Positions 2,699 through 33,219 of a stretch of DNA of 64,000 nt are shown piece by piece. The stretch's first letter is position 1. Every line of letters starts with the position of its first letter. Source of the stretch: Closterium sp. NIES-65 (Eukaryota; Streptophyta; Zygnematophyceae; Desmidiales; Closteriaceae). The translations under genes were made by a program, and so were the position numbers. The stretch lies in the NCBI GenBank assembly GCA_948144175.1, contig CANXME010002307.1, positions 1,137,001-1,201,000 of the forward strand. Direction: 5' to 3'. Below the pieces are notes generated by a model. The model ran no database searches, was not told the DNA's origin, and saw nothing but the letters and a program-made list of their open reading frames with translations.

Positions 2699-3045
2699 TG
2701 TCAGAGGTCCACTGGTGATCCCCGATTGATCCTAGGAAAGGGTTACAGGCACGTTGGCTTGGGGGGTTATGGGCGCATTGACCCGCTACTTAAACAAGCC
2801 CTTTTATCCCAATGGTCTAGTGGTTGGGATTCTGACATGGTATCAGAGCGAAGGTCTCGGGTTCGTATCCCGGTGTATGCACTTCGGGCATCCCAGTGCG
2901 GGGGGGTGTCAGAGGTCCACTGGTGATCCCCGATTGATCCTAGGAAAGGGTTACAGGCACGTTGGCCTGGGGGGTTATGGGCGCATTGACCCGCTACTTA
3001 AACAAGCCCTTTTATCCCAATGGTCTAGTGGTTGGGATTCTGACA
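2699..3045 (+). mobile_element. T1: 347-bp miniature LTR retrotransposon (TRIM) with a tRNA-like core
   Basis: Two near-identical 139-bp LTRs (2699-2837 and 2907-3045, TGTCAG...CTGACA) flank only 69 bp. The internal part starts with the initiator-tRNA-Met primer-binding site TGGTATCAGAGC (2838) and ends in a G7 purine tract. The unit is bounded by perfect TSDs TTGCC (2694-2698 and 3046-3050) inside the G1 5' LTR, and the empty site is seen in the G1 3' LTR. It has no coding capacity, so its reverse transcription and integration proteins must come from elsewhere. Two more copies are T2 (41298) and T3 (59948). Confidence 0.9.
2813..2870 (+). promoter_or_regulatory. tRNA(Glu)-like RNA polymerase III promoter (A and B boxes) in T1
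   Basis: TGGTCTAGTGG at 2813-2823 fits the A-box consensus and matches the D-arm of tRNA(Glu) genes. GGTTCGTATCC at 2860-2870 is a B box with one deviation and forms a five-pair T-arm with a seven-base loop. The 36-base spacing is normal for tRNA genes. The LTR/primer-site junction (2837/2838) lies between the boxes. There is no matching 3' acceptor strand, so it is tRNA-like, not a tRNA gene. Activity is an inference. Confidence 0.55.
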
Positions 3046-4579: not shown

Positions 4580-7500
4580 ATGGCTACCCCTAGTGTCCTA
4601 GCTTTTGACGCTGAGGGTCGTGCCATTGACTTTGAGGTCTGGGTCGACGACCTGCAGCTGTTCTTGCAGTGCGATAGGGTAGACGACCTTTCTCTCTTTG
4701 ACCTTACCTCTGGCGCCGTCCCTGCCCCTGCTGCTGATGCTGACCCCACTGTTCGCTCCAAGTGGGCCACACGCGATGCTGCTGCACGTCTTGCTGTCCG
4801 TCGCCACCTGCCTACCGCTGAGCGTGCACACTTTAGTCAGTACAAGAGTGCCCAGACCTTGTACGACGCTGTAGTTGCGCGCTACTCCTCCCCTGCCACT
4901 GCTCCACTGAGCCGCCTCATGCTCCCCTTCCTCTTCCGTAACCTCGCCGCCTTTCCCACTGTCGCTGATCTCATTACGCACCTCCGCACTAGTGACACCC
5001 GCTACCGCGCTGCGCCTCCTGCTGACTTCTGCGCCAAGTACCCCCCCACCCCATGTACATCACTCTCTACTTTCTCGTCACTCCCCTCCCTGACTCCCTT
5101 CGTGTAGTCCGGGACCACTTCCTCGCGGTCTGTCCCACCACTCTCACAGTCGACAGCCTCGAGAAGGCCCTCTTAGCGGCGGAGAAGAGCATCGTCGCTG
5201 TAGGAGCCTCTCGAGGTGACCCCCGCGCCCCCATCTTTGAGGGGTGTTCTCCTTCCCCTCTCTTGCCCTCTGTCGCCTCTGCCGCTGCGGCCGACCTCGT
5301 TGGTCTTGAGTCGGTCGGTGCGGCGTCTGCCCCTAGCGGGAGACGCCGCTCTGGCAAGGGCAAGGGGGGCAAGGGAGCGGGTGGGGCCAGCGGGGGCGGT
5401 GGAGGTGGAGGTGGAGGCGGCGGAGGGAGTGGGGGTGGCGGTGGAGGTGGTGGGGGGGGTGGGGGTGCTAGTGGCGGCAGTGGAGGCGGGAGTGGCAGCG
5501 GCGGTGGCGGTGGGAGCGGAGGTGGCGGAGGCGGCGGCGGTGGAGGCGGCGGCGGTGGAGGCGGAGGCGGGGGTGGCGGTGGTGGAGGTGATCGGAGTGG
5601 CGCTTCGCAGCGGAGCAGCACTGGGGGTGGTCAGCGCCAGCAGCAGCAGCAGCAGCAGCGTTCTCGCGACATCCCCACCCCTCAGCAGCTCCGTGAGTGG
5701 TACACGCAGCGTCAGCGCGGTGGGGGTTTTGGTCCCTGCACCTACGTTCTCCGCACTAGCGACCGCGCTGGAGAGCAGTGTGGGGGTACCCACACCGCCC
5801 AGCGCTGCTTTGGCCGCCTGACGGACGCTTGGCACCAGCAGTTCCTGAAGGCCGCGGAGATCCCCCGCTGGGGAGAGCTGTCTAGGGCTGGTGTCGCTAT
5901 CTTTGATATTGATTTTGATGCTATCCTTGCTGCCATGTATGCTGTGACCATTAGTGATGAGGGTGACTGTTACCGGTGTTTCCCGCCCAACCCGGGCATT
6001 GGTACTACTGCTCTAGGTGCTTGTCAGACTACTGCTCTAGGTGCCAGTGCGTCTGTGCTCTCAGGTGCTGGTGAGGCTGCTCTCTCAGGTACTAGTGAGT
6101 CTGCGCTCTCAGGTACTGTGTCGGCTTCGGCCTCCCACACCTTCACACTTGACTCTGGAGCGTCTCGCTCCTTCTTTCGGGACCGCACCACACTCACGCC
6201 GCTTAGTCGGCCGGTTGCGGTGTCCCTGGCTGACCCCTCTGGGGGTCCTGTCCTGTCTCGCTTCTCCACAGTCCTCCCGTGTCCGGCGGCTCCCTCTGGC
6301 ACCCTGTCTGGTCTCTACCTCCCCTCGTTCTCTACAAACTTGGTGAGTGGTGCTAACCTACAGGATGCGGGAGTCCACCAGTTCACCCCTACTCGTCAGC
6401 GTGTGACGCACTACACAGAGGCTAGCACAGGTCGTCACCTGGCTACGTTTACACGTCAGCCAGGGTCGAGCCTGTACACACTGACCACTGCTTCTCCTCC
6501 AGTTCCTGAGTCTGGTAGGGTCCCTTCGTCAGGTCAGGTGTTTGCTGCAGCGTCCAGGTCTGGTCCTGAGTCTACCCCCTGTTCATGTCGTCGCCTGTCT
6601 CACGAGACTCTCCTCTGGCACCACCACCTGGGTCACCCCTCTCTGCTTCAGCTCAGAGGCATGGCCTCCCGTCTTCTTGTGTCTGGTCTTCCTCGGTCCC
6701 TCCCTCCCCTTCCTCAGGGCCCTGGCCCTGCCTGTGTCCCCTGTGTCGAGGGGCGCCAACGTGCTGCCCCTCACTCCTCCCAGTTTCCTCCGACAGAGGC
6801 TCCGTTGCAGACGCTTCACATGGACGTGTGGGGCCCTGCCCGCGTCCGTGGACTCGGTCACGAGCGCTACTTCCTGTTGGTGGTTGACGACTACTCTCGT
6901 TACACCACAGTCTTCCCCTTGCACAGCAAGGATGATGTTACTGAGGTGCTGATCGACTGGATCCGCGCAGCTCGTCTCCAGCTCAGGCAGAGCTTTGGCT
7001 CGGACTTTCCTGTGTTGCGTCTGCACTCGGACAGAGGCGGGGAGTTCTCCACTGGCCTTCTGCGTGCTTACTGTCGTGCCCGAGGCATCCGTCAGACCTT
7101 CACGCTTCCGGACTCACCGCAGCAAAATGGGATTGCAGAGCGCCGCATTGGCATGGTCATGGACGTCGCTCGTACGTCTATGATGCATGCGGCTGCCCCC
7201 CATTTTCTGTGGCCGTTTGCGGTCAGGTACGCGGCGCATCAGATCAACCTCCACCCCAGGGTCTCAAGGCCGGAGACCTCCCCAGCTTTGCTGTGGACGG
7301 GGAAGGTTGGCGATGCGTCGGCGTTCCGGGTCTGGGGATCTCGGGCGTTTGTCCGCGACTTGTCTGCGGACAAGCTGTCCCCTTGCGCTGCTCCCTGCGT
7401 CTTCCTGGGGTTCCCCCCCGACGCCCCTGGGTGGCAATTCTACCACCCCACCTCTCGCCGTGTTCTGTCCTCCCAGGACGTCACGTTCGATGAGTCGGTA

Positions 7501-9793
7501 CCCTACTACCGCCTCTTCCCCTACCGCACTCCGTCCCTCCCCCCACCCCCGCTCTTCTTGGTACCAGGTCCCCCCCCGGTAGACCCCCTTCCCCCTCAGG
7601 GTCCTGCCCCTTCAGGTGTGTCCCAGGTAGACGCGGTCGAGCCTGTCGAGGTCACTGGTGACTCTGGTGCTGCTGTGGGTGCTGAGCCTAGGGGTGCTGT
7701 GATTGGGGGTGCTGTGCCTAGGGGTGCTGAGCTTGGGGGTGCGGAGCTTGGGGGTGCGGAGTCTGGGGGTGCTAAGTCTGGGGGTGCTGAGCCTGGGGGT
7801 GCTGAGCCTGGGGGTGCTGAGCCTGGGGGTGCTGAGCCTGGGGGTGCTGAGCCTGGGGGTGCTGAGACTGGAGGTGCTACGCCTGGAGGTGCTTTGCCCG
7901 GGGGTCCTGAGCCTGGAGGCTCTTCGCTTGGAGGCTCTCCGGGTGCTTCGACTCGCCGAGAGCCACTCTCCCCACAGGAGCTGCGTGAGTGGTTTGCCCG
8001 GCGCTGGAGGCGTGCTGCTGGTGCTGGAGGTTCTTCGGCTGCTGAGGGTGCTGCTGCCGCGCGTCCCGGAGGTGCTCGTACTAGGAGTACTGGAGCTGCT
8101 GGGCCTGCGGGTTCTACTCGAGCTGGTGCTGCTGAGCGTGTTGGCGCTGAGACTACCGCTGGCGGTCCGACTGGCAGTGCTCCTGGTGCTGCTGGAGGTT
8201 CTGGGGCTGCTGGAGGTGCTACTGGGGGTTCTGGAGCTACTAGAGGTGCTGCTGGAGCGGGTACTCCTGCTGGGGGTACTCGTGCTGTCCCTGCTATTTC
8301 TGGCGTCGCCACCTGGCCCCGACCGTACTTCGTTCCAGTCCTGCAGCAGGTTCTTGGTCTTACACCTTCTCCTGGTCCTCCCCCTCCTCCCTTAGAGGGT
8401 CCACAGCCTGTCCAGTCACAGTTACAGCTACAGCCTGCCTCCCCTTTGCCTGCTCCTTCTCCCTACGCTGGTCCGACTGGAGGTCTTACTGAGCGTCGTG
8501 AGCCTGCGTCTCGTCCTGCGTCGCGTGTTTGTGCTGCGCGCACTAGTGGTCGTGGTTCGCGTCAGCGTCCTCCTATGTCCCTGGCACGCACCGGATGTCT
8601 CTGCGTCCGTCTACTGCTCCTCTGCGTGCCCCTTTGCCTTCTCCTCCTGCTTCCTCTCTTTCTGCTCTTGCCGACCCGGAGTCGGACTCTCTTCGTGCTG
8701 CCAGTCCTACTGTCACACGTCTCCTTGCTACTGTTGTCACTGACCCTTCTTTCGAGTCTTCTGCTGCGTCTGCTCTTGTTACTGAGCTCGTCGACTTTGC
8801 TGCGCGCTGTTGTCTAGACTACGCTGCTAGTCTTGTCGCTGAGTCTGAGTCTACCTCTCCTCCGTCCGTCGGGGGTGAGTGTGCCCTTGGCACGGACGTC
8901 CTTGAGGACAGGCAGGAGGAGTTCCAGTGTCTGGCCGCCGCTTCACCTCATCTCACGTCTGTACTGCTCACCCGTGAGGGAGACCCGGATGCACTAGACA
9001 TCCCGACTCCGCGCTCTTACGCGGAGGCGATAGAGGGTCCCTACTCCTCTCAGTGGCAGGCAGCTATGGATGCAGAGATGGCTTCCTAGAAGTCCACAGA
9101 CACCTACGTTGGCGCTGTTCCCCCTCCTGGGGCGAACATCGTCAGTGGCATGTGGATCTTCAGGGTGAAGCGGCCGCCGGGTTCTCCGCCTGTTTTCAAG
9201 GCGCGTTACGTGGCTCGTGGCTTCAGCCAGCGGCAGGGAGTTGACTACTTTCAGACCTTCTCCCCCACCCCGAAGATGACCACTCTTCGGGTACTGCTGC
9301 ACGTTGCTGCTCACCGTGACTACGAGCTGCACTCTCTCGACTTCAGCACTGCTTTCTTGCAGGGCAGCCTGCACGAGGAGATCTGGCTGCGTCGCCCACC
9401 TGGCTTCACTGGGTCTTTCCCTCCTAGAACCCAGTGGAGTCTCCGGCGTCCAGTCTACGGTCTCCGCCAGGCGCTGCATGAGTGGCACGACATACTGAGG
9501 ACTACGCTGGTGGCACTTGGGTTTGCTCCTTCCACTGCAGACCCGTCGCTGTTTCTGCGCACCGACACCTCTCTGCCGCCGTTCTACATCCTCGTGTACG
9601 TCGACGACTTGGTCTTTGCCACAGCTGACACTGCTGGACTCGCCTACGTGAAGTCCGAGCTGCAGAAGAGACACACGTGCACTGACCTGGGTGAACTGCG
9701 CGGCTACCTTGGCTTGCAAATCACCCGGGATAGAGCACGCCGCACCATTACCCTGACTCAGTCACACATGGTGCAGCAGGTCCTTCAGCGCTT
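4580..9793 (+). pseudogene. C1 gag-pol polyprotein, broken
   Basis: The ATG at 4580 opens MATPSVLAFDAEGRA. In order: Gag N-domain; a glycine-rich linker (5375-5590) with runs of more than 20 Gly; a CX13CX3HX4C motif (about 5735-5810); protease with TLDSGAS (about 6150); the HHCC pre-integrase region; integrase core with HMDVWGP, HSDRGGE and NGIAE, which supply the DDE triad; an integrase C-terminal block; an Ala/Gly linker with GGAEP repeats (7690-7920); and RT with intact YVDD (about 9600). Breaks seen: a frameshift in the C-run near 5041-5056, a one-base loss near 8575, and TAG at 9087-9089. It would normally make virus-like particles and copy the element; this copy is truncated before RNase H. 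Confidence 0.88.
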
Positions 9794-9821
9794 CATCACA
9801 AATCTTCTTTTAAATCGCCAA

Positions 9822-13336: not shown

Positions 13337-16064
13337 TGTGAAAGTAGTAGGTAGTCTTAGGGGCCATAGCTAGGAAAGCCCTAGCTAGGCAAGAAATAGT
13401 TTAGGCAAAAGAGGGTTTTCACTAGCACGAATGAGGATACAAATAGCAAACCCTAGAAGGGTTGTACTCGCTATAGAGCACCCCACTACAGGCTAGAGCA
13501 TAACATTCTGACACACCCCCATAGCCAAAGTGGGGTGTAATCAGCACAGTGAGAAAGCAGGTATAGAGCAAGAGTTTACATAGATAAGCAAAGCTAGAGC
13601 TAATCACAACGGACAAGTAAGGAGGAGGAGGAGCTGTGGGGGAGAGAAGATGGGAGGCGACTGCTGACGCTGAAGACACACAAACGAGCTGCTGGCTCAG
13701 TGGCTACCGGAACAGCGCTCCGGACTACTGGAGTAACTGGCCCCGCGGCTAAAAGTAGTGGCAGACGAGCAACGGACCCACGGGCGACTGGCGACTACCG
13801 GAGATTGTAGCCTCCGGACTGCTGCTGCTGCTGACGACAAGACTGCTGCCTCCACTCAACCTCCCCCAACTGCCCCACACTCTCGACACACGCCCACTGC
13901 TCAAACCCTAGCTCCACTCCCACGCACCCCCCTTAAACCCTAAACCCCAGTCTCCCACTCATCCACCCCCCTCAGCGACAGCTGCAGCAGTGGGAGACGA
14001 AGGAGGAGGAGAAGAAGGGTACAACGCACAATGGACACCCCCACAACCACCACCCCCACACTCCTCACCCCAAACCCTAAAACGGGTGGGACGGGGAGGG
14101 AACGCGGGGGACGACGGGGAGAACGGCGCGCGGTCCCCAGGGCGCCACCACGGGGCAGCGGGGGGGCCGCGCGCGGCTCCTCAGGGCGCCACGAAGGGGC
14201 AGCGGGAGGGCGGCGACGGGGCCGCAGAGGGCGGCGACGGGGCCGCAGAGGGCGGCGACGGGGCCGCTGCCCGCGGCGACGGGGCCGCTGCGGGCGGTGA
14301 CGGGGCCGCTGCGGTGGCGACGGGGCTGCTGCAGGCGGCGAGGGGGGGGCCGCTACGGACGGCGGCGGGGCCGCACGTGACACCCCAGGGCGTTGCAACG
14401 GACGAGCGGGGGCCGCGCGCGGCTCCCTTGGGCGGCGCAACGGGGCAGCGGGGGCGGCGCGCTAGAAAAGAAAGAGGCCACGCGCACGCGCCAGAGTGCA
14501 AATCGTCACGCGCATGCGTCGCACGCCACGGGGCGTGCGACATATCGAGTAGCAGCGGAAGCAGTAGTACCCACAGGCCAAGAGCGTAACCGCTCTGAAA
14601 CCATGTTAAAAGCCTAAGTTGACTTAGGACTTGGGTTGAGGGTAGAACGAGAGTTACGAGAGGAAGGGGTCGAGAGATTAGCCAAAAAGAGGGTGTTCAC
14701 TATAGAGCGAGCAGTACAAATAGGTAAGAATCAGGAAAGGTGCACCACCAATCAGAAAGTTATATGACTATAGTATTCTACACTACAGGCAGTTATAGAA
14801 CAATATATAGAATTATATATTATTCTGACACGCCCCCATAAGTGCCTGTAGGGAAGAATGTGCAATCAACGCCCCCATAATGGGGTACACCAGACAAGGT
14901 GCAGCGGAAGAAACAGTGGCAGGCAAAAGCAGTGGTAACCGGTGCAGAAGTGGCTGAAACAGCTGTAGCCAACCCTCAGCCAAGGAAGAAGCAGTAACAA
15001 GTGTGGGAGGCGGCAGGTCGCCTGAGGAGCAGGCTCTGTGGCTGCAACAGGCAGCAGGACAGCAGTGGCTCGACGGTAGCACCTGCAGGCCCCAGCATCA
15101 GAAAACAGAAAACAGGGCAGGTGGCGACAGGGGCGACAGCTGGAGGTGCCACAGTAGCAGCGGGCGGCAGCAGCAGATACCCGGCTGTCTTCCGCCACCC
15201 TCTCTCACCCTCCCCCCCACAGCGGCACGCGCGACAGTGAGAGAGAGAGAGGAGGAAGGGCGGCTGCTGGCTTGGTAGAATGTCTCTCACCACCCCCTCT
15301 ACTCCCCCCCTTCCCCCATAACGACGGGTGCTGCAGGGAGAGAGAGGAGAGAGGAGGGCGGCGGCTGGTTCCTACGGGTAAACTCCCGCCACCCCTGCAC
15401 CCTCCCCCCCACAGCGACAGTCGCGCATGGGGCGATAAAGGGCGACGGCAGGCGCTGCTGGCGTCTCACAGCAGTCACCCCGTAACGCCACCTCCCCCAC
15501 TGTCCGCCACCGCCGCCACTTTTCCTCCACTGCCCGCCACCCTCGCGACATTCCTTCACAGCAAGAGCGCTCGCGACAGCTGTAGCGGGGCCGGTGGGAG
15601 GGAGGGCGGGGACAGTTGCACGGGCGCGATGGGTGGGACAGGGGGCCGGAACGAAGGTGCGACAAAACGGCGACGGGGCAGCGTGGCAGCAAACGACGGG
15701 CGGAGCCAGCGCGACGGCCGCCCAGCTCGTCGCCACGACAGCCGCGCCCTTCGTCGCGAATGTCGCGACTTTTACAGCAACAAGCGCGCAACGGGTAGGG
15801 CGAACGAGCGGGACGACGCAGGCCGCAACGAAGGGTGCCATTAGGAAAAAAAAACCACAGGCTAGGATCGAAGCATGCTCTGTACCATGTAAAAGTAGTA
15901 GGTACTCTTAGGGACCATAGCTAGGAAAGCCCGAGCTAGGCAAGAAACAGTTTAGGCAAAAGAGGTTTTTCACTAGCAGGAATGAGGATACAAATAGCAA
16001 ACCCTGGAAGGGTTGTACTCGCTATAGAGCACCCCACTACAGGCTAGAGCATAACATTCTGACA
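13337..16064 (-). mobile_element. X1: composite non-autonomous copia with three LTRs
   Basis: Outer LTRs of 177 bp lie at 15888-16064 (5') and 13337-13513 (3'), read on the minus strand from TGTCAGAATG. They are flanked by perfect TSDs GACGT (13332-13336 and 16065-16069). The primer site TGGTACAGAGC adjoins the 5' LTR, and a tract ending ATGGGGGTG adjoins the 3' LTR. A third LTR of another family lies inside (14604-14830). No pol-type coding was found; the two internal parts are GC-rich and low in complexity. It interrupts G1 between protease and RT. Confidence 0.85.
14604..14830 (-). repeat. Internal LTR of X1 (different family)
   Basis: 227 bp reading TGTCAGAATAATAT...TTTTAACA on the minus strand, related to the solo LTR at 58836-59097. 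A purine tract ending ATGGGGGCG lies directly upstream and the primer site TGGTTTCAGAGCGG directly downstream. It is therefore flanked like an LTR shared by two internal regions, not like a solo insertion. Confidence 0.75.
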
Positions 16065-19000
16065 GACGTTGCCGATCACAAACATCAAGGTTAAGATTTC
16101 ATCTTGGGGCAAGATTTCCTGAAGCGGTTCAACCCCGAGATCGACTGGGTCAACAGGAAGGCGTACATCTACAACAATGGGAAACGAGTGGAGCTGAGAA
16201 GGTGGACGGATACAGGGAGCGTTCCTGAAACGACACTGGCACGGTTCGAACGGACTGTAAACAAGAGTAACACGGGATACTTAGCACTGGTTATGGCAGC
16301 AGCAAAGGAGGAGAAGCCGACTTCGGAGCTACCTGCAGCAGTAAAGGAGGTGTTGGCGCACTACAAGGATATAATGCCTGACGACCTACCCGCAGGCGTA
16401 CCTCCAGCACGCACCCACGAGCACGAGATCGTGGAGAAACCAGGTGCGAAACCCGTCTTACGTGCACCATACCGACTGAGTCCAACCGAGCTCACAGACA
16501 TGAAGAAACAGACAGAGTATCTTCTGGACAGACAACTGATCCGCCCATCCACCTCTCCCTACGGTGCACCAGTCCTCTTCACTCCAAAACCAGACGGCAG
16601 TTTACGGATGTGCATCGACTACCGCGCACTGAGCAAACAGACAGAATAAATACCTCATACCGCGCATAGACGACCTATTGGACCAACTGCGTGGTGCAAC
16701 AATCTTTTCGAAGTTGGACCTACGGTCGGGTTACTGGCAGATCAAGATGGCGGACAACTCGATCCACAAGACGGCGTTCCGTACCAGATACGAGTCCTAC
16801 GAATACTTGGTGATGTCGTTCGGACTCTGCTACGCACCAGCGACGTTCTAGGCGGAAATGAACCACATCCTGCGGCCCCTGCTGGACGAGTGCGTAGTAG
16901 TGTACCTGGACGATATCCTCATCTACTCCAAGAACATGAAGGAGCACGTGGAGCATCTGCGGAAAGTCTTCGAGATCATGCGGAAGAACAAGTTCTACAT
17001 GAAGCTGTCGAAGAGCGACTTCGCCCTGAAGAAGGTGCAGTTTCTCGGGCACATGGTGAGTGCCGAGGGCGTATACGTGGATCCGTGGAAGATCAAAGAC
17101 GTCAAGAAGTGGAAAGTACCGGAGAACGTTAAGGAGTTCCAGCAGTTTGTAGGCTTCGCCAACTACTACAACAGGTTCGTGCCACAGTACGCTAAGATTG
17201 CAGCACCACTGACCGACCTACTGAAAAAGGATACGCCCTTCAAATGGGATACCCCTCATCAGCAAGCCATGGAACAGCTACAGACAGCACTGACCACATC
17301 CCCACTACTCATCCTACCGGACCCAGACAAGGACTACGTGGTGGAAGCAGACGCTAGTGACCAGGCAGTCGGAGCAGTACTGATGCAAGATCACGGGAAC
17401 GCGGAACGGTTTACAGCCTATCGCCTACCTCAGTAAGAAGCTACACGGAGCAGAACTGAATTACCCCATCCACGACAAGGAAGCCTAAGCGATAGTCATA
17501 GCATTCAAGGCGTGAAGGTGTTACCTAGAGGGAGCCAAGACTACAGTCTATACTGACCACTGCACTCTCAAATACCTGAAGTCGCAGCCGACGCTCTCAC
17601 GACGACAGGTGCGGTGGGTGGACTTCCTGGAAACTCACTTCCACTACGACATCGTCTGCAAGCCCGGGCTACACAACAAGGCAGACGCGTTGAGCCGCCC
17701 CGGACATGTAGGAGGCATCCAGCTCGACGGGATGAACCCTCTACTCAAGGGTCTATTCCAACATGGGTACACTGTGGACACAGAGATCACTACAGCACAG
17801 ACTAAGAAGCTGTTACAGTGGGAGAAAGAATTAGCGGTAAGGAAGGGTTCAGGTAAGATTTGGGTACCGAATTACGCCCCGCTACGGCAGATCCTATTGG
17901 AGGAGTTTCACGACGTACCTTACGCGGGACATTTCGGGAGCAACAAGACATTAGCAGGGATAGCGAAGTATGAATACTGGCCCAGGATGGCAGCAGACGT
18001 GGAGCAGTTCATCACCTCTTGCAACACGTGCCAGCAGATGAAGAGCAGCAAGCAGAAAAAGACAGGGTTACTTCAGCCTCTACCCGTACCGGAGCAGCCA
18101 TGGCAAGTCGTTAGCCTCGACTTCATCACGGGACTTCCTTCGACCTCACGAGGGCATGACGCTATACTCGTAGTGATTGACAAGTTCTCCAAAATGGGTC
18201 ACTTTATCCCAACCAACGCCACGGCTACAGCTGAAGCAACTGTTCGCCTCTTCTTCGACCGCATCATCACCATCCACGGCATCCCCGCTACACTCATCTC
18301 AGACAGAGACCCAAAATTCACCAGTAAGTTCTGGAAGGAGCTCATGGGACTGTTGGGGACAAAGCTTGCAATGTCTTCAGCATACCACCCCCAGACTGAC
18401 GGACAGAAAGAGCGACTCAATCAGGTGGTTTAACAGTTATTGCGCACAGCTTGCAAGGACGACGTCAGCCACTGGGACACACAGTTACCGACCCTAGAGT
18501 TCGCTTACAACAACGCATCATATGCGGCCACAGGGAAAACTCCTTTCTCCCTGTGTTACGGACGGGAACCACTCACACCACACCAGCCAACCACACCGGC
18601 ACACGTCCAAGCCGCACATGACTTCGTCACCACCATGCAGCAGCTATGGGAGAAGACTCAGCGACGTCTCACCACGATGCAGAACTCCGAGAAGTAGTAC
18701 GCCGATCGTCAGCTACGTGATCACTTAGTAGCAGTCGGAGATCAGGTGCTTCTTGACACGCGCAACTTGAACCTATCTCAACTCCCATCCAAACTCCAGC
18801 CTCGCTTCTCGTTGAGGCACAGGTGACACCAGTTACATTCCGCTTGTGCTTACCAGACACATGGAAGCTTCACAACGCTTTCCATGTCCAGCTACTGAAA
18901 CCCTACAAGGACCCCAACCAACAATTCCAGAGACTGCAGCTACCGCCACTACCACCTGTTCTCATACAGGATGAACCAGAGTACGAAGTGGAGCGCGTTC

Positions 19001-19162: not shown

Positions 19163-19527
19163 TGAGGGGGGGACGGGTGAGAGTACGACGACTTGTGCTA
19201 GCTATGCTTGCTTGCCTTTATTTTATTATGCTATTTCTAGCATATGATAATTTTATGCATGCATGAATTGCTTGATTTCCTAGGCTAGGTGCTTTCCTAT
19301 ATTTTATTATAGTTTTAGCACCGAGCTAGGTTGCGTGCACCAAATTCTGGCTTTTGGGTTGCCACCAAATTGCCTTCTACCGAATACGGGAAGGATCTGT
19401 TCGGGACGTTTTGCGGCCCGCGGAACCTTCGCGTAACACCTGGTTACTGGGCCTTGTGTCGAGCCTATATATAGCCTCGTGTTGTACCCAGGTCATCATT
19501 CAATTCAATTACAATTCTCTTTTCTGA
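19163..19527 (+). repeat. G1 polypurine tract and 3' LTR (end missing)
   Basis: The purine tract TTTGAGGGGGGGACG lies just before the LTR start at about 19176. The LTR carries the empty site of the T1 insertion (single TTGCC near 19373). It breaks off at TTTTCTGA, where the 5' LTR still has CTCGATCCTAGATCCTCACA. Confidence 0.8.
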
Positions 19528-19687
19528 GTGGAGAAAGGAGGCACGACTGCCACGAGTGCCCTCAGTGGCCAGAAGCCACTGAATTCGGCGGTATGACTCT
19601 TCGCGATTGAATTTTGCGTCAGCCGTTTTCCCTCCAAAATCGCATCTGCTTCAACTGTCAGCTCAAACTCGAATCTTATCAATGGTC
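19528..19687 (+). repeat. Repeat B: left flank of copia C2
   Basis: Near-identical to 1085-1247. It ends ATCAATGGTC, and the C2 LTR follows immediately. Repeat A continues across this point without an element. Confidence 0.75.
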
Positions 19688-22807: not shown

Positions 22808-25800
22808 CGGTGGCGGCGGAGGCGGGGGTGGCGGCGGTGGAGGTGGTCGGAGTGGCTCGTCCCAGCGGAGCAGCACTGGGGGTGGTCAGCGCCAGCAGCA
22901 GCAGCAGCGCTCTCGCGACGTCCCCGCCCCTCAGCAGCTCCTTGAGTGGTACTCGCAGCGTCAACGTGGTGGGGCGTTCGGTCCCTGCACCTACGTCCTT
23001 CGCACCGGCGACCGCGCGGGTGAGCAGTGTGGGGGCACCCACACCGCCCGCCGCTGCTTTGCCCGCCTCACCGACGCTTGGCGCCAGCAGTTTCCGGAGG
23101 CCTCTGAGATCCCCCGCTGAGGAGAGCTGTCTAGGGCTGGTGTAGCTATCTTTGATCTTGACTTTGATGCTATCCTTGCTGCCATGTATGCTGTGACGGT
23201 TAGTGATGAAGGTGACTGTTACCGGTGTTTCCCGCCCGACCCGGGCATTGGTACTGCTGTGTTAGGTGCCAATGAGGCTGCTGCTCTAGGTGCCAGTGCG
23301 TCTGTGCTCTCAGGTACTAGTGAGTCTGCACTCTCAGGTACTACGTCGGCTTCGGCCTCTCACACCTTCACCCTTGACTCTGGGGCGTCTCGCTCCTTCT
23401 TTCGGGACCGCACCACTCTCACGCCGCTTAGTCGGCCGGTTGCGGTGTCCCTGGCTGACCCCTCTGGGGGTCCTGTCCTGTCTCGTTTCTCCACAGTCCT
23501 CCCGTGTCCGGCGGCTCCCTCTGGCACCCTCTCTGGTCTCTACCTCCCCTCGTTCTCTACGAACCTGGTGAGTGGTGCTGACCTACAGGATGTGGGTGTC
23601 CACCAGTTCACTCCTGCTCGTCAGCGGGTGACACACTGCACAGAGGCCAGCACAGGTCGCCACCTGGCTACGTTTACACGTCAGCCAGGGTCGAGCCTGT
23701 ACACACTGACCACTGCTTCTCCTCCAGGTACTGAGTCGGGTAGAGTCCCTTCGTCTGGTCAGGTGTTTGCTGCAGCGTCCAGATCTGGTCCTGAGTCTGC
23801 CCCCTGTTCGTGTCGCCGTCTGTCTCACGAGACCCTCCTCTGGCACCACCGCCTTGGCCACCCCTCTCTGCTTCGGCTCAGAGGCATGGCCTCCCGTCTT
23901 CTTGTGTCTGGTCTCCCCCGGTCCCTCCCTCCCCTTCCTCAGGGCCCTGGCCCTGCCTGTGTCCCCTGTGTCGAGGGGCGCCAGCGTGCTGCCCCTCACT
24001 CCTCCCAGTTTCCTCCGACAGAGGCTCCGTTGCAGACACTTCACATGGACGTGTGGGGCCCTGCCCGCGTCCGTGGACTAGGTCACGAGCGCTACTTCCT
24101 TTTGGTGGTTGACGACTACTCGCGTTACACCACGGTCTTCCCCTTGCGCAGCAAGGGTGATGTCACTAAGGTGCTGATCGACTGGATCCGCGCAGCTCGT
24201 CTTCAGCTCAGGCAGAGCTTTAGCTCGGACTTTCCTGTGTTGCGTCTGCACTCGGACAGAGGCGCAGAGTTCTCCTCTGGCCTTCTGCGTGCCTACTGTC
24301 GTGCGCGAGGCATCCGTCAGACCTTCACGCTTCCGGACTCACCGCAGCAAAATGGGATTGCAGAGCGCCGCATTGGCATGGTCATGGACGTCGCTCGTAC
24401 GTCTATGATGCATGCGGCTGCCCCCCATTTTCTGTGGCCGTTTGCGGTCAGGTACGCGGCGCATCAGATCAACCTCCACCCCAGGGTCTCCAAGCCGGAG
24501 ACCTCCCCAGCCCTGCTGTGGACGGGGAAGGTTGGCGATGCGTCGGCGTTCCGGGTCTGGGGATCTCGGGCGTTTGTCCGCGACTTGTCTGCGAACAAGT
24601 TGTCCCCTCGCGCTGCTCCCTGCCTCTTCCTGGGGTTCCCCCATGACGCCCCTGGGTGGCAGTTCTACCACCCCACCTCTCACCGTGTTCTGTCCTCCCA
24701 GGACGTCACGTTCGACGAGTCGGTACCCTACTACCGCCTCTTCCCCTACCGCACTCCGTCCCTCCCCCCGCCCCCGCTCTTCTTAGTACCAGGTCCCCCC
24801 CCGGTCGACCCCCTCCCCCCTCAGGGTCCTGCCCCTTCAGGTGTGTCCCAGGTAGACGCGGTCGAGCCTGTCGAGGTCACTGGTGACTCTGGTGCTGCTG
24901 CGGGTGCTGGGCCTGGGGGTGTTGAGACTGGAGGTGCTACGCCTGGAGGTGCTTTGCCTGGGGGTGCTGAGACTGGGGGTGCTGAGCCTGGGGGTGCTGA
25001 GCCTGGGGGTGCTGAGCCTAGGGATGCTGAGCATGGGGGTGCTGAGCCTGGGGGTACTGTGCCTGGGGGTGCTGAGCCTGGGGGTGCTGAGCCTGGAGGT
25101 ACTACGCCTGGAGGTGCTTTGCCTGGGGGTGCTGAGACTGGAGTTTCTTCGCCTGGAGGTTCTTCGGGTGCTTCATTTCGCCGGGAGCCACTCTCCCCAC
25201 AAGAGCTGCGTGAGTGGTTTGCCCGGCGCTGGAGGCGTGCTGCAGGTGCTGGAGGTTCTTCGACTACTGAGGGTGCTGCTGCCGCGGGTCCCGGAGGTGC
25301 TCGTCCTGGGAGTCCTGGAGCTGCAGGGCCTGCGGGTTCGACTCGAGCTGGTGCTGCTGAGGGTGGTGACGCTGAGACTGTCACTGGCGGTCCAACTGGC
25401 GGTGCTCCTGGTCCTGCTGGAGGTTCTGGATCTGCTGGAGGTGCTACAGGGGGTTCCGATGCTGCTGGAGGTGCTGCTGGAGCGGGTGCTCCTGCTGGGG
25501 GTACTGGTGCTGTCCCTGCTGTTTCTGGCGTCGCCACGCGGCCCCGACCGTACTTCGTTCCGCTCATGCAGCAAGTTCTTGGTCTTACACTTTCTTCTGG
25601 TCCTCCTCCTTCTCCCTTAGCGGGTCCACAGCCTGTCCTGTCGCAGTCACAGCTACAGCCTGCCTCCCCTTTGCCTGCTCCTTCTCCCTACACTGGTCCG
25701 ACTAGAGGTCTTACTGAGCGTCGTGAGCCTGCGTCTCGTCCTTTGTCGCCTGTTCGTACTACGCGCACTAGTGGTCGTGGTTCGCGTCAGCGTCCACCTC

Positions 25801-27802
25801 TTGTCCCTGGCACGCACCGGATGTCTCTGCGTCCGTCCACTGCTCCTCTACGTGCCCCTTTGCCTTCTCCTCCTGCTTCCTCTCTTCCTGCTCTTTCCGA
25901 CCCGGAGTCGGACTCTCTTCGTGCTGCCAGTCCTACTGTCATGCGTCTACTTGCTACTGCTGTCACTGACCCCTCTTTCGAGTCTTGTGCTGCGTCTGCC
26001 CTTGTCACTGAGCTCGTCGACTTTGCTGCGCGCTGTCGTCTAGACTTCGCTGCTAGTCTTGTCGCTGAGTCTGAGTCTGCCTGTCCTCCCTTCGTCGAGG
26101 GTGAGTGTGCCCTTGGCACGGACGTCCTTGAGGACAGGCAGGAGGAGTTCCATTGTCTGGCCGCCGCTTCACCTCATCTCGCGTCTGTACTGCTCGCCCC
26201 TGAGGGAGACCCGGATGCACTAGACATCCCGATTCCGCGCTCTTACGCGGAGGCGATAGAGGGTCCCTACTCCTCTCAGTGGCAGGCAGCTATGGATGCA
26301 GAGATGGCTTCCTGGAAGTCCACAGGCACCTACGTTGACGCTGTTCCCCCTCCTGGGGCGAACATAGTCAGTGGCATGTGGATCTTCAGGGTGAAGCGGC
26401 CGCCGGGTTCTCCGCCTGTCTTCAAGGCGCGTTACGTGGCTCGTGGCTTCAGTCAGCGGCAGGGAGTTGACTACTTTCAGACCTTCTCCCCCACCTCGAA
26501 GATGACCACTCTTCGGGTACTGCTGCACGTTGCTGCTCACCGTGACTACGAGCTGCACTCTCTCGACTGAAGCACTGCTTTCTTGCAATGCAGCCTTCAC
26601 GAGGAGATCTGGTTGCATCGCCCACCTGGCTTCACTGGGTCTTTTCCTCCTGGCACCCAGTGGAGCCTCCGGCGGCCAGTCTACGGTCTCCGCCAGGCAC
26701 CGCGTGAGTGGCACGACACGCTGAGGACTACACTTGCGGCTCTTGGGTTTGCTCCCTCTACTGCCGACCCGTCGCTGTTTCTGCGCACCGACACTTCTCT
26801 GCCGCCGTTCTTCATCCTCGTATACGTCGACCACTTGGTCTTTGCCACAGCTAACACTGCTGGACTCGCCCACGTGAAGTCCGAGCTGCAGAAGAGACAC
26901 ACGTGCACAGACCTGGGTGAACTGCGCAGCTACCTTGGCTTGCAGATCACCCGGGACAGAGCACGGCGCACCATTACCCTGACTCAGTCACACATGGTGC
27001 AGCAGGTCCTTCAGCGCTTCGGCTTCACGTACTCCTCGCCTCAGGCCACTCCTCTGCCTACTCGCCACTCGCTCTCAGCTCTGCCTTCGGATGAGTCCGT
27101 AGAGTCGAGTGGCCCGTATGCAGAGCTTGTTGGCTGCCTCATGTACCTGATGACCTGCACACGACCTGACCTTGCATACCCTCTTAGCATTCTCGCACGC
27201 TATGTTGCTCCTGGGAGACACCGACCAGAGCACATGGCTGTAGCGAAGAGGGTGTTGCGCTACTTGTGGAGTACGTCGGGCATGGGGCTAGTGCTTGGAG
27301 GGCGCAGTCCAGTGGTCCTCACTGGGCACGCGGACGCTTCTTGGGCTGACGACCAGGCTACGCAGCGGTCGTCACAGGGTTACACCTTCAGCCTTGGTTC
27401 CGGCTCTATTTCGTGGCGGGCTACCCGCTCGTCTTCTGTTCTCGGCTCCAGTTGTGAGGCTGAGATCTACGCCAGGGCTATGGCTGCCCAGAGCTTCGCT
27501 GGCTCACCTACCTGCTGACCGACCTTGGAGAGCCGCCTCGTTCTCCTCCAGTCGTGTACGTAGACAAAAAGGCCATGCTGGCCTTGTGTCGAGAGCAGCG
27601 ACTGGAGCACAGGACAAAGCACATTTCTCTCCGCTACTTTCTTGCTCGTGAGCTACAGCAGCGTGGACAGTTGCGACTTGCGTACGTGGCCTCTGAGGCC
27701 AACACTGCTGATGTCTTCACCAAGGCACTTGCGCCTTGTGATCATCAGCGTTGTTGCACGCAGCTGGGTCTTGTGCCTGTCTTGCCTCACTTGCTCACTT
27801 CT
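22808..27802 (+). pseudogene. C2b: copia gag C-terminus to RNase H
   Basis: Starts inside the glycine linker. The zinc motif GPCTYVLRTGDRAGEQCGG...RCF is intact. A TGA at 23118-23120 precedes a long frame (23184-26570) holding protease TLDSGAS, the HHCC region, integrase with HMDVWGP, HSDRGAE and NGIAE, an Ala/Gly-rich linker, and the N-terminal half of RT. A TGA at 26568-26570 interrupts RT; the frame continues 26583-27518. The RT box reads YVDH, so a catalytic Asp is lost. RNase H ends with NTADVFTKAL (about 27710). The inversion breakpoint follows at about 27802. Confidence 0.85.
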
Positions 27803-30800
27803 GGTCGTCAGCCCAAGAAGCGTTTGCGTGCCCAGTGAGGACCACTGGACTCTGCCCTCCAAGCACTAGCCCCATGCCCGACGTACTGCACAAGTAGCGC
27901 AACACCCTCTCGCTGCAGCCATGTGCTCTGGTCGGTGTCTCCCAGGAGCAACATAGCGTGCAAGAATGCTAAGAGGGTATGCAAGGTCAGGTCGTGTGCA
28001 GGTCATCAGCTACATGAGGCAGCTAACAAGCTATGGGTACGGGCCACTCGACTCTACTGACTCATCCGAAGGCAGAGCTGAGAGCGAGTGGAGAGTAGGC
28101 AGAGGAGTGGCCTGAGGCAAGGAGTACGTGAAGCCGAAGCGCTGAAGGACCTGCTGCACCATGTGTCACTGAGTCAGGGTAATGGTGCGGCGTGCTCTAT
28201 CCGGGGTGATCTGCAAGCCAAGGTAGCTGCGCAGTTCACCCAGGTCTGTGCACGTGTGTCTCTTCTGCAGCTCCGACTTCACGTGGGCGAGTCCAGCAGT
28301 GTCAGCAATGGCAAAGACCAAGTCGTCGATGTACACGAGGATCTAGAACGGTGGCAGAGAGGTGTCGGTGTGCAGAAACAGCGACGGGTCGGCAGTAGAG
28401 GGAGCAAACCCAAGAGCCGCAAGCGTAGTCCTCAGTGTGTCGTGCCACTCGCGCGGTGCCTGGCGGAGACCGTAGACTAGCCGTCGGAGGCTCCACTGGG
28501 TGCCAGGAGGGGAAGTCCTAGTGAAGCCAGGTGGACGGCGCAGCCAGATCTCCTCGTGCAGGCTCCCCTGCAAGAAAGCAGTGCTGAAGTCAAGGGAGTG
28601 AAGCTCGTAGTCACGCTGAGCGGCTATGTGTAGCAGCACCCGAAGAGTGGTCATCTTCGGGGTGGGAGAGAAGGTCTGAAAGTAGTCAACTCCCTGCCGC
28701 TGACTGAAGCCACGAGCCACGTACCGCACCTTGAAGACAGGTGGAGAACCTGGCGGCCGCTTCACCCTGAAGATCCACATGCCACTGACGATGTTTGCCC
28801 CAGGAGGGGGAACTGTGTCAACATAGGTGCTTGTGGACTTCCAGGAAGCCATCTCTGCATCCATAGCTGCCTGCAACTGAGAGGAGTAGGGACCCTCTAC
28901 GGCCTCCGCGTAAGAGCGCGGATTCGGGATGTCAAGTGCATCCGGGTCTCCCTCAGGGGTAAGCAGTACGGACAAGAGATGAGGTGAAGCAGCAGCCAGA
29001 CACTGGAACTCCTCCTGTCTGTCCTCAAGGACGTCCGTGCCAAGAGCACACTCACCCCCGACGGACGGAGGACAGACAGACGCAGACTCAACAACAAGAC
29101 AAGCAGCGTAGTCTAGACGACAGCGAGCAGCAAAGTCGACGAGCTCAGCAACAAGAGCAGACGCTGCAGTGGACTCAAAGGAGGGGTCAGTGACGACAGT
29201 AGCAAGGAGACGCGTGACAGTAGGGCTGGCAGCAGGAAGAGAGTCCGACTCCGGGTCGGCAAGTGCAAGAAGAGAGGACGCAGGAGGAGAAGGCAAAGGG
29301 GCACGCAGAGGAGCAGTGGATGGACGCAGTGACATCCGGTGCGTGCCAGGGACAGGAGGAGGACGCTGACGCGAACCGCGACCACTAGTGCGCGCAGCAC
29401 GAACAGGCGACGCAGGACGAGACGCAGGCTCACGACGCTCTGCAAGACCTCCAGTAGGACCAGTGTAGGGAGAAGGAGCAGGCAGTGGGGAGGCCGGCAG
29501 AAGCTGTTACTGGGACTGGACAGGCAGTGGACACTCTAAGGGAGGAGGAAGACCAAGAACCTGCTGAAGGAGCGGAACGATGCACGGCCGAGGCCGCGCG
29601 GCGACTCTAGACACAGCTGGGACAGCACCAGCGCCAACACCACCGCCAGCTGCAGGACCTCCAGCAGCACCAGCAGCACCCCCAGCAGAACCGTCTCCAG
29701 GACTGACAGCAGTAGCCTCAGCGCCAACACCCTCAGCAGCTCCAGCTCCAGGCAAACCCGCAGGCCCAGCAGCTCCAGTACTCGCGGCACGAGCACCTCC
29801 GGAACCGTCGGCACCAGCACCCTCAGCAGCTGAAGAAGCTCCAGCAGTACGCCTCCAGCGCCGCGCAAACCACTCACGCAGCTCCTGTGGAGAGAGTGGC
29901 TCCCGCCGAGGCGAAGCACCCGGAGAACCTCCAGGCCCTGCACGAGCAGGCCCAGCGGCCGCCGGCTCTGCACCCTTAGGCTCAGCAGCTCCACACGTGG
30001 CAACCCCAGGCTCAGCACCTCCAGACGTAGGACCTCCAGGCTTAGCACCCCCAGGCGTAGCACCCCTAGGCTCAGCACCCCCAGGCGTAGCACCCCCAAG
30101 CTCAGCACCCCCAGGCGCAGCACCCCCAAGCTCAGCACCCCCAAGCTCAGCACTCACAGCAGCACCAGAGTCACCAGTAACCTCGACCGGCTCGACCGCG
30201 TCTACCTGGGACACACCTAAAGGGGCAGGACCCTGAGGGGGGAGGGGGTCTACCGAGGGGGGACCTGGCACAAAGAAGAGCGGTGGCGGGGGGAGGGAAG
30301 GAGTGCGTTCAGGGAAGAGGCGGTAGTCGGGGACCGACTCGTCAAGCGTGACGTCCTAAGAGGACCGAACACGACGAGAGGTGGGGTGGTAGAACTGCCA
30401 CCCTGGCGCGTGAGGGGGGAAGCCAAGGAAGACACAAGGAGCAGCACGAGGGGACAGCTTGTCCGCAGACAAGTCGCGGACAAACGACCGAGATCCCCAG
30501 ACACGGAACGCAGACACATCGCCTACCTTCCCCGTCCACAGCAAAGCTGGGGAGGTCTCCGGCCTGGAGACCCTGGGGTGAAGGTTAATCTTATGCGCCG
30601 CGTACCGAACCGCAAATGGCCACAGAAAATGGGGGGCAGCCGCATGCATCATGGACGTACGAGCGACGTCCATGACCATGCCAATGCGGCACTCAGCAAT
30701 CCCATTTTGGTGTGGAGAGTCCGGAAGCGTAAAGGTCTGGTGGATGCCTCGCGCACGGCAGTAGGCTCGCAGAAGGCCAGAGGAGAACTCTTCGCCTCTG

Positions 30801-33219
30801 TCAGAGTGCAGACGCAGAACAGGAAAGTCCGAGCCGAAGGTCCTCCTGAGCTGGAGACGAGGTGCGCGGATCCAGTCGAACAACACCGCAGTGACATCGC
30901 CCTTGCTGCGCAAGGGGAAGACTGTGGTGTAACGCGAGTAGTCGTCAACCACCAGCAGAAAGTAGCGCTCGTGACCCTGTCCACGGACGCGGGCCGGGCC
31001 CCACACGTCCATGTGAAGCGTCTGCAGCGGGGCCTCTGTCGGGGGAAACGGAGAGGAGTGAGGAGCAGCCCGTAGCCGCCCCTCGACACAGGGGACATAG
31101 GATGGACCAGGCCCCGAAGGAAGGGGAGGGAGGGACCGGGGAAGACCAGAGACAACGACACGGAAAGCCATGCCTCGGAGACGAGGCAGGGAGGGGTGAC
31201 CAAGACGGTGGTGCCACAAGAGAGTCTCGTGAGACAGGAGGCGACACGAGCAGAGGGCAGACTCAGGACCACACCTGGATGCTGCAGCAAACACCGGACC
31301 CGACGCAGCTACCTGACCAGACGCAGGGACAGGAGGAGACTCAATGGTCAGGGTGTAGAGGCTCGACCCCGGCCGACGCGTAAACGTGGCCAGGTGCCGG
31401 CCTGTGTGAGCTTCCGAGCAGTGGGTCACCCGCTGACTCGCAGGAGTAAACTAGTGAACCCCCGCATCCTGCAGGTCAGCACCATTCACCAAGTTCGTAG
31501 AGAACGAGGGGAGGTAAAGACCAGACAAGGTGCCAGAGGGGGCAGCCGGACACGGGAGGACAGTGGAGAAGTGAGAGAGGACAGGATCCCCAGAGGGGTT
31601 TGCCAGGGAGACTGCAACCGGTCGACCAAGCGGCGTGAGTGTAGTGCGGTCTCGAAAGAAGGAGCGAGAAGCCCCTAAGTCAAGTGTGAAGGTGAGGGAG
31701 GCCGAAGCCGACGCGGTACCTGAGAGCGCAGACTCACCAGTACCTGAGGACACAGACGCACTGGCACCTAGAGCAACAGCCGCACTAGCACCTAGAGCAG
31801 CAGCCTCACCAGCACCTAGAGCAGCAGTCTCAATGCCTGGATCGGGCGGGAAGCACCGGTAACAGTCACCCTCGTCACTATAAGTCACAGCATACATGGC
31901 AGCAAGAATAGCATCAAAGTCAAAATCAAAGATAGCTACACCTGCCCTAGAGAGCTCTCCCCAGCGGGGGATCTCAGCGGCCTCCGAGAACTGGTGACGC
32001 CAAGCATCCGTCAGGTAGCCAAAGCAGCGCTGGGTGGAGTGGGCACCCCCACACTGCTCACCCACGCGGTCGCCGGTGCGAAGGACGTAGGTGCACGGAC
32101 CAAAACCCCCACCACACTGACGCGCAGCGTACCACTCACGGAGCTGCTGAGGTGGGGGGATGTCCCGAGAACGCTGGTACTGCTGCTGCTGGCGCTGACC
32201 ACCACCGGAGCCGCTCCGCTGCGAAGCGCCACCCCGACCAGCTCCACCTCCTCCACCACCGCCTCCTCCACCTCCGCCACCACCGCCGCCTCCGCTCCCA
32301 CCACTACCGCCTGGCCTCCACTGCTGCCACCGACACCTCCACCCCTGCCACCACTCCCACCGCCACCCCCACTCCCTCCGCTGCCTCCACCGCCACCTCC
32401 GCCACCCCCGCTAGCTCCACCCGCGCCCTTGCCCCCTTTGCCCTTGCCAGAGCGGCGTCTCCCGCTAGGGGCAGACGCCGCACCGACTGACTCAAGACCA
32501 ACAAGGTTGGCCGCAGCAGCAGAGGCGACAGAGGGCAAAAGGGGGGAAGGGGAACACCCCTCAAAGATGGGGGTGCGAGGGTCACCATGAGAGGCTCCTA
32601 CAGCGACTATGCTCTTCTCCGCTGCTAGGAGGGCCTTCTCTAGGAGGTCAACAGTGAGAGTGGTGGGACAGACCGAGAGGAAGTGGTCCCTGACAACACG
32701 AAGGGAGTCAAGGAGGCGCGTGACTATATAATAGAGAGTGATGTACATGGGGGGGGGGTTCTTGGCGCAGAACTCAGCAGGAAGCGCAGCGCGGTAGCGA
32801 GTGTCACTAGTGCGGAGGTGTGTAATGAGGTCAGCGACTTTGGGAAAGGCAGCAAGGTCAGGAAAGAGGTACGGTAGCATGAGGCGGCTCAGTGCAGCAG
32901 TGGCAGGGGAAGAGTAGCGCGCAACTACGGCGTCGTACAAGGCCTGAGCACTCTTGTACTGACTAAAGTGTGCGCGCTCAATGGTAGGCAGGTGGCGACG
33001 CACAGCAAGACGTGCAGCAGCATCGCGAGTGGCCCACTGGGGGCGAAGAGTGGCGTCGGCATCGGCAGCAGGGGCAGGGGAGGCACCAGAGGTGAGGTCA
33101 AAGAGGGAGAGACCGTCTGCCCTATCGCACTGTAGGAAAAGCTGCTGGTCATCTACCCAGACCTAAAAGTCAATGGCCCGACCCTCAGCGTCAAAAGCGA
33201 GAACACTGGGGGTGGCCAT
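27803..33219 (-). pseudogene. C3 gag-pol polyprotein, broken
   Basis: ATG at 33219 gives MATPSVLAFDAEGRAIDF, then a TAG. Gag from about 33003 reads through NPPPMYITLYYIV without the frameshift seen in C1, then shifts frame in the glycine linker (32440-32290). The zinc end reads GEQCGGAHSTQRCF. The protease box is TLDLGAS instead of DSGAS, so it is probably inactive. Integrase (31429-30356) holds HHLGHPS-type, HMDVWGP, HSDRGEE and NGIAE motifs. The linker is rich in GGAEP-like units. RT (29335-28150) has a stop just before a YIDD box. Truncated in RNase H. Confidence 0.85.

Follow-up and report, generated by a model that had tools for sequence, protein, structure and literature searches.

Three miniature LTR elements (TRIMs), designated T1, T2 and T3, lie in the window, that is, the whole 64,000-nucleotide stretch of Closterium DNA that was analysed. 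T1 occupies positions 2699–3045 of the forward strand (347 bp, TSD TTGCC) and consists of a 5′ LTR (2699–2837, 139 bp), an interior (2838–2906, 69 bp) and a 3′ LTR (2907–3045, 139 bp). The primer site (PBS), TGGTATCAGAGC, which we take to be of the initiator tRNA-Met type, directly follows the 5′ LTR at 2838–2849, and the G-rich tract GCGGGGGGG at 2898–2906, a candidate plus-strand primer site, precedes the 3′ LTR. The identity of the two T1 LTRs is 99.3% over 140 aligned bp. T2 (41298–43085, forward strand, TSD ACCAA) has a 5′ LTR of 138 bp and an interior of 69 bp (41436–41504); its 3′ LTR is split by a nested element, N2. T3 (59948–60292, reverse strand, TSD GTGCA) is an older copy with LTRs of 138 bp, which are 89.1% identical over 137 bp, and with an interior of 69 bp (60154–60086) that retains the PBS letters TGGTATCAGAG.

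The three copies share LTRs of 138–139 bp, an interior of 69 bp, the PBS, the G-rich tract and perfect 5-bp TSDs, so that the coordinates and dimensions given for them in an earlier note on this DNA are all confirmed. They are genuine TRIMs: T1 has two LTRs, is shorter than 1 kb and lacks coding capacity, the 69-bp interior being too short for Gag or Pol. Paralogous counterparts of the T1 and T3 sites are present in the window at 19177–19528 and at about 8814–9794, respectively; since these counterparts are unoccupied, T1 and T3 are insertions.

The element N2, nested in T2 at about 41592–43030, has LTR-like repeats at 41593–41783 and 42870–43031 in opposite orientation and contains a PBS-like sequence, CTCTGATACCA. 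A repeat pair resembling that of N2 can be noted at 13337–13516 and 15888–16067. Several Copia copies of the window (5026–8817, 23121–26570 and 28343–32410) are marked by extended stretches of glycine in Gag and by a repetitive linker that separates integrase from reverse transcriptase. One Copia protein of the window gave 7,771 matches among 8,000 scored; the 120 listed come, as far as they were read, from Closterium strains.

Copy number and families

The genome-wide search that the earlier note had called for was performed on 874 Mb and revealed at least 2,926 TRIM copies (1,436 plus 1,490). The pattern was anchored at CAAGCC, the start of the PBS and TGTRTGCAC and left the letters of the boxes described below free; all 26 anchor letters had to fit, which makes the count a lower bound. 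The reversed pattern gave no match. An earlier pattern, which demanded the tRNA-like TTAGGAT, matched 14 places, each of which has the LTR end and the PBS of the TRIM, and its control also gave none. No TRIM copy was found in ten 4-kb stretches (40 kb) taken at round coordinates of large contigs, and the pattern search of viral contigs yielded no matches.

Two families were distinguished in a sample of 100 of the 2,926 matches, taken in contig order: 44 copies belong to family A, which has the spacing of T1, 54 belong to family B, in which the gap between the PBS and the B box is 3 nt shorter, and two fit neither. Family A has LTRs of 139 bp and an interior of 69 bp, family B LTRs of about 141–142 bp and an interior of 93 bp. 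Among eight whole copies, the interior is 69 bp in three family A copies (three of the four were measured) and 93 bp in all four family B copies; where 3′ LTRs were measured, they are 139 bp (family A) and 142 bp (family B) in length.

In a separate set of 60, retrieved as similar to T1 or T3 and biased accordingly, a perfect 5-bp TSD was found by automatic cutting in at least 46; this is a lower bound, because in at least one copy (L013) the automatic cut fell 2 bp short. L004, L005 and L016, which resemble T1 and lie on two contigs, have the TSD TAATT and one B-box change in common and for that reason probably arose by duplication of a locus and not by separate insertions. In one TRIM lineage, which includes L013 and L092, the 5′ LTR ends with GA instead of CA; G is found at this place in 15 of 90 aligned copies. 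L013 has GA at both LTR ends and the TSD TAAAC, and hence it integrated with non-canonical ends. Another copy, L088 (C10:849106–849476), is a mosaic of a family-B-like U3, starting with TGTCAGTA, and a family A interior, as if the two families had been mixed by strand transfer or recombination.

tRNA-like letters at the junction of LTR and interior

The end of the T1 LTR and the adjacent interior contain the letters of a tRNA-type promoter. The A box, TGGTCTAGTGGT, is located at 2813–2824 and comprises letters 14 to 25 counted back from the LTR end. The B box, GGTTCGTATCC, at 2860–2870 begins 22 nt inside the interior and is contained in a T-arm-like hairpin (2857–2873). A TTTT run is located just upstream of the A box at 2802–2805, and its partner in the 3′ LTR (3010–3013) is a candidate Pol III stop. 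The 3′ LTR has its own A box (3021–3032) with no B box downstream. The positions proposed in the earlier note for both boxes and for TTTT are as stated there; the B box, which was described as full, contains one mismatch. The B box of T2 is degraded (GGTTCGAATTCC), as are both boxes of T3 (TGGTTAGTGG and GGTTTCAAATCC), whose A box has a 1-nt deletion, and none of the three window copies has two perfect boxes. A strict search of the window for A and B boxes found none, and a relaxed one found T1 only; the relaxed pattern was absent from 60 Markov-generated sequences, each 64 kb long.

A chance resemblance to the two boxes is highly improbable and is disfavoured. Strings similar to the A box are indeed common, occurring in 4,314 of 20,000 random 347-mers; however, the B box occurred in 23 of them and both boxes at tRNA spacing in none, and the controls of the genome patterns gave no matches.

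A functional tRNA gene was considered and rejected. ARAGORN found no tRNA in the window, and with permissive settings on the TRIM loci it found matches nearly everywhere, which were taken as noise. T1 scores 12.0 bits with the Rfam tRNA model, whose cut-off is 29, and is absent among the matches to this model in the entire window at E up to 10. Of eight copies chosen without regard to their boxes, four reach 16.4–18.9 bits with E-values of 1.7–8.3 across all 4227 families, which alone are not significant, and the other four are not listed at E up to 10. Two copies selected for their boxes and thus not a fair sample, L064 and L070, score 19.4 and 20.0 bits. In addition, the tRNA-like acceptor strand has no 3′ partner. 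As all listed scores are below 29 and the acceptor strand is unpaired, the sequence is a promoter-like remnant and not a tRNA gene.

The earlier note assigned the boxes to the tRNA(Glu) type. They are indeed of tRNA type; however, when these two isotypes are compared, host tRNA-Gly(GCC) appears to be the better fit. Seven matches to tRNA-Gly(GCC) were found in the genome (control, none), all sharing TGGTCTAGTGGT and CGGGTTCGATTCC (reading CCCGGGTTCGATTCC), although the search pattern itself required TGGTNTAGTGGT and GGTTCRANTCC. The T1 A box consists of the same 12 letters as in these matches. Host tRNA-Glu was found in 47 places (control, none) with GGTTCAAGTCC or GGTTCAAATCC, and the D arms of ten fetched tRNA-Glu genes read TAGTCTAGTCGG in six cases, TAGTCTAGTTGG in one and TCGTCCAGCCTGG in three. 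When the TRIM was aligned with three host tRNA-Glu genes, the sense score was reached by 1–2 of 2000 shuffles and the antisense score by 145–285 of 2000. Thus, tRNA-Glu as the source gives a better alignment in sense than in antisense, yet Gly(GCC) matches the boxes better. It is less likely that the B box is a mere extended complement of initiator tRNA-Met, given that the sense A box and the spacing fit a tRNA. As for the tRNA-Glu genes, TTTT or a longer run was seen by eye downstream of all ten; for L102, it comes only after a TTT, further on.

Six of the seven tRNA-Gly(GCC) matches (contigs C752, C1006, C1413, C1894, C2077 and C2106) have 6–8 extra nucleotides after the anticodon in comparison with the match on C1849; apparently, these are tiny introns. 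The A-to-B distance in the host Gly match without the insert is 42.

Two further hairpins can be drawn in T1. The first (ATCCCAA/TTGGGAT, 2806–2830) is located in U5 and overlaps the D-arm/A box. The second is formed by the LTR end and the PBS (TCTGA-CATGGTA-TCAGA, 2831–2847) and has a 5-bp stem and a 7-nt loop in the position of an anticodon arm. Retroviral U5-IR and primer-activation structures offer an analogy for reading them as parts of an RNA structure for reverse transcription. The U5, PBS and T-arm-like hairpins would then place the primer tRNA, and the likeness to the boxes would be a by-product. Of three stretches folded for minimum energy, all form the PBS hairpin and two the U5 hairpin; however, their stability is no better than that of shuffled sequences (z 0.08, 0.15 and 1.31). 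Moreover, such a structure leaves unexplained the sense-strand identity to host tRNA-Gly boxes at a near-tRNA spacing, and on balance, we consider this explanation rather improbable.

Variation among copies

By strict patterns, the A box was found in 82 and the B box in 84 of the 100 sampled copies, and both in 70: 29 of the 44 family A copies and 40 of the 54 family B copies. The B box reads GGTTCGAATCC in 60 copies and GGTTCGATTCC in 19. The distance between the starts of the two boxes in the 70 two-box copies is 44 nt in 41 of them, 47 nt in 28 and 46 nt in one, with 44 nt being characteristic of family B and 47 nt of family A; both values come near the 42 nt of the host Gly match that has no insert. 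The TTTT just ahead of the A-box block, which the earlier note had described in T1, is found in 89 of the 100 copies.

Changes of letters upstream of the PBS were counted in the 90 aligned copies without indels before the PBS (10 copies with indels were excluded). They amount to 9 of 360 letters in TTTT, 8 of 630 and 10 of 630 in the two arms of the U5 hairpin, 21 of 990 in the A box and 40 of 630 at the LTR end. In the spacer after the PBS, 19 of 524 letters are changed. In the 98 copies used for the B box and T-stem (the two copies outside both families were excluded), 16 of 882 letters are changed at the nine fixed positions of the B box, 24 of 98 at its free N position and 7 of 98 at the R position; the three T-stem letters directly after the box are changed in 25 of 294 cases. 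The variation of the B box is thus mainly at two positions that are free in the tRNA consensus. This is the best sign of a constraint specific to the boxes, although the larger of the two contributions is probably due to a single lineage: the change at the N position is largely confined to one family B lineage (23 of 54).

The pairwise difference among three family A copies is 0.072 in U3, 0.036 in U5 and 0.052 in the interior after the PBS; among four family B copies, the values are 0.049, 0.014 and 0.029. The family A values exclude the mosaic L088, which had inflated an earlier U3 figure to 0.135; with L088 added, they become 0.133, 0.027 and 0.052. In finer segments (four copies per family, with L088 included), the A box differs by 0 in family A and 0.045 in family B, and the B box by 0.136 in family A, as much as U3, and 0 in family B. 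For the segment from the B box to the G-tract, the values are 0.034 in family A and 0.036 in family B, a conservation similar to that of the boxes themselves. Relative to U3, variability is clearly reduced in U5 and somewhat reduced in the interior, the contrast being modest and based on few copies. The earlier note held that the Pol III reading would fail if the boxes were no better conserved than the rest of the element. The outcome is mixed. U5 with the A box, and to a lesser extent the interior with the B box, do vary less than U3; however, the boxes are not clearly set apart from the surrounding U5 and interior letters.

The same figures bear on the explanation by RNA structure. Of all letters counted, those in the arms of the U5 hairpin change least, less also than those of the A box. 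A paired change at positions 114 and 126 was also seen in the 60 copies of the biased set (AT in 42, GC in 16); however, in the broader sample, the pairing is weak (AT 81, GC 3, AC 3 and GT 3 of 90).

Some copies with a damaged A box have moved. The A box lacks one nucleotide in 7 of the 100 sampled copies and in 14 copies of the biased set of 60. In 13 of these 14, the deletion is found in both LTRs, and four of the 13 have a perfect TSD by automatic cutting, with three different TSDs. The presence of the deletion in both LTRs together with TSDs indicates that A-box-deleted copies were mobilized; T3 itself has a TSD. Such copies, as well as the boxes being not clearly more conserved than the neighbouring U5 and interior, would be expected if the tRNA-like letters were a relic, that is, a piece of a tRNA or SINE captured at the origin of the TRIM, which is now transcribed by Pol II. 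TTAAA upstream of CAAG in T1 may be a weak TATA-like sequence, and the Helenus paper places ordinary TRIMs under 'TRIMp2', a class transcribed by Pol II (PMC10886601). However, the B box varies mainly at its free consensus positions, TTTT is kept in 89 of the 100 copies, both families have kept both boxes, and on direct reading, the T1 U3 is GC-rich with no obvious TATA box. We regard a relic as rather unlikely.

A proposed Pol III cycle and its known relatives

The tRNA-type boxes flanking the primer site suggest, without proving, that the element is transcribed by the tRNA-producing machinery of the cell. As judged from the sequences, the use of Pol III by the TRIM is evenly balanced between true and false, and it is still the best single explanation. 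Speaking for it are the retention of both boxes by both families, the near-tRNA distance between them and the TTTT after host tRNA-Glu genes; speaking against it are the copies that moved with damaged A boxes, the conservation of the hairpin arms above that of the A box, the lack of a clear contrast between the boxes and their neighbouring letters, the unpaired acceptor strand, the tRNA score below the cut-off and the TTTT in the 5′ LTR.

In this scheme of Pol III transcription, the abundant non-coding TRIM group of Closterium to which T1–T3 belong would be moved in trans, most likely by elements of the Copia type. Its putative Pol III promoter would derive from a tRNA of Gly-GCC-like type and would be divided by the boundary of the LTR and the interior, with the A box in U5, the B box in the interior and, between them, the LTR end and PBS as an anticodon-arm-like hairpin. 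TFIIIC would bind A plus B, which are adjacent only where the 5′ LTR meets the interior. A candidate start region in T1 is CAAG (2795–2798), in which CAA lies 9–11 nt before the tRNA-like nucleotide 1. For Arabidopsis, a CAA triplet among the 10 nt upstream of a tRNA gene is described as serving, in most cases, as the start of transcription (PMC11700998). Pol III would start near this CAA, 16–18 nt upstream of the A box, transcribe the interior together with the U3 of the 3′ LTR and stop at the TTTT in the matching position of the 3′ LTR. The predicted RNA would be about 220 nt long, and a terminal repeat of about 10 nt would be available for strand transfer. The TTTT of the 5′ LTR, which would lie no more than about 10 nt from the start, would have to be read through, and that of the 3′ LTR would have to be obeyed.

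The more specific proposition is that a bipartite Pol III promoter exists only at the LTR–interior junction, that the 5′ LTR acts as promoter and the 3′ and solo LTRs as terminators, and that the start and the stop of the RNA differ by about 10 nt in their LTR position. We put this forward tentatively, as slightly less probable than its opposite. If it is true, the problem of two identical LTRs is solved by position. If the promoter works, the primer site and the Pol III promoter are merged, and identical LTRs receive different roles.

As for possible partners, the Copia-adjacent LTRs of the window begin with TGTCA, and TGGTATCAGAG follows one LTR end; an autonomous element carrying a homologous LTR was not found. 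By eye, A and B boxes of this kind are absent from the LTR ends that adjoin Copia ORFs of the window.

The earlier note knew of no tRNA-type equivalent of Cassandra. In fact, Helenus, a group of TRIMs with tRNA-derived sequences in their LTRs, had already been described from fungi, animals and one plant, and the term TRIMp3 was coined for such elements (Kojima 2024; PMC10886601). According to the available portion of that paper, Helenus resembles the Closterium TRIM in its LTRs, PBS, PPT and tRNA-type A and B boxes, its tRNA-like parts being for the most part no functional tRNAs, and in the 5-bp TSD found in fungi and plants (PMC10886601). Helenus-1_SMo from Selaginella has an LTR of 120 bp and an interior of 85 bp, and there are up to 5,575 Helenus LTRs per family (PMC10886601). 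The same portion does not demonstrate the use of Pol III by Helenus either (PMC10886601). The boxes of Helenus are described there as lying inside the LTRs (PMC10886601), whereas in the Closterium TRIM, the LTR contains the A box alone and the interior contains the B box; consequently, the solo and 3′ LTRs of the latter have no complete promoter. Both boxes recur across the Closterium copies (70 of 100 by strict patterns), and the tRNA-derived sequence within the LTR is restricted to the 5′ half with the A box. The Closterium TRIM may work like Helenus, although it does not fully correspond to the Helenus definition. A tRNA-type TRIM is thus already known, and, as far as the letters indicate, the difference here is that the LTR/PBS junction lies between the boxes. 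In the papers listed by literature searches, titles and the opening parts of abstracts mention no element with A and B boxes astride this junction, and one may exist unremarked in Helenus.

Among other short retroelements, tRNA-derived SINEs (SINE2) are also non-coding and have an A/B box promoter; in contrast to the TRIM, they have no LTRs and use target-primed reverse transcription, as stated in the accessible part of the Helenus paper (PMC10886601). SMART and other plant TRIMs are similarly tiny, with a non-coding interior and with tandem arrays that are common in plants; however, the available part of the source reports no Pol III promoter for them, the 5S promoter of Cassandra excepted (PMC4717578).

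Cassandra is the only validated TRIMp3 lineage according to the portion consulted (PMC10886601). The PBS TGGTATCAGAGC has the same letters as the Cassandra search pattern in the section of the source at hand (PMC7215508). The proposed start and stop of Cassandra also fall in one LTR region, with a redundancy of 18 bp, as given in the part of the paper available (PMC10886601). Unlike the split promoter proposed here, the 5S rRNA promoter of Cassandra is situated wholly in the LTR, in the same section of its source (PMC7215508). No 5S sequence of this kind was detected in the window, where no Rfam match exceeded the cut-off. Tandem arrays are a further likeness to Cassandra in the section cited (PMC7215508). 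Two tandem TRIM arrays with shared LTRs were found, as known for Cassandra and plant TRIMs: one (L075, C106:2458300–2460400) has five PBS copies, four of them spaced 207–213 bp apart, and the other (L076, C2292:889000–890700) has two PBS copies 207 bp apart.
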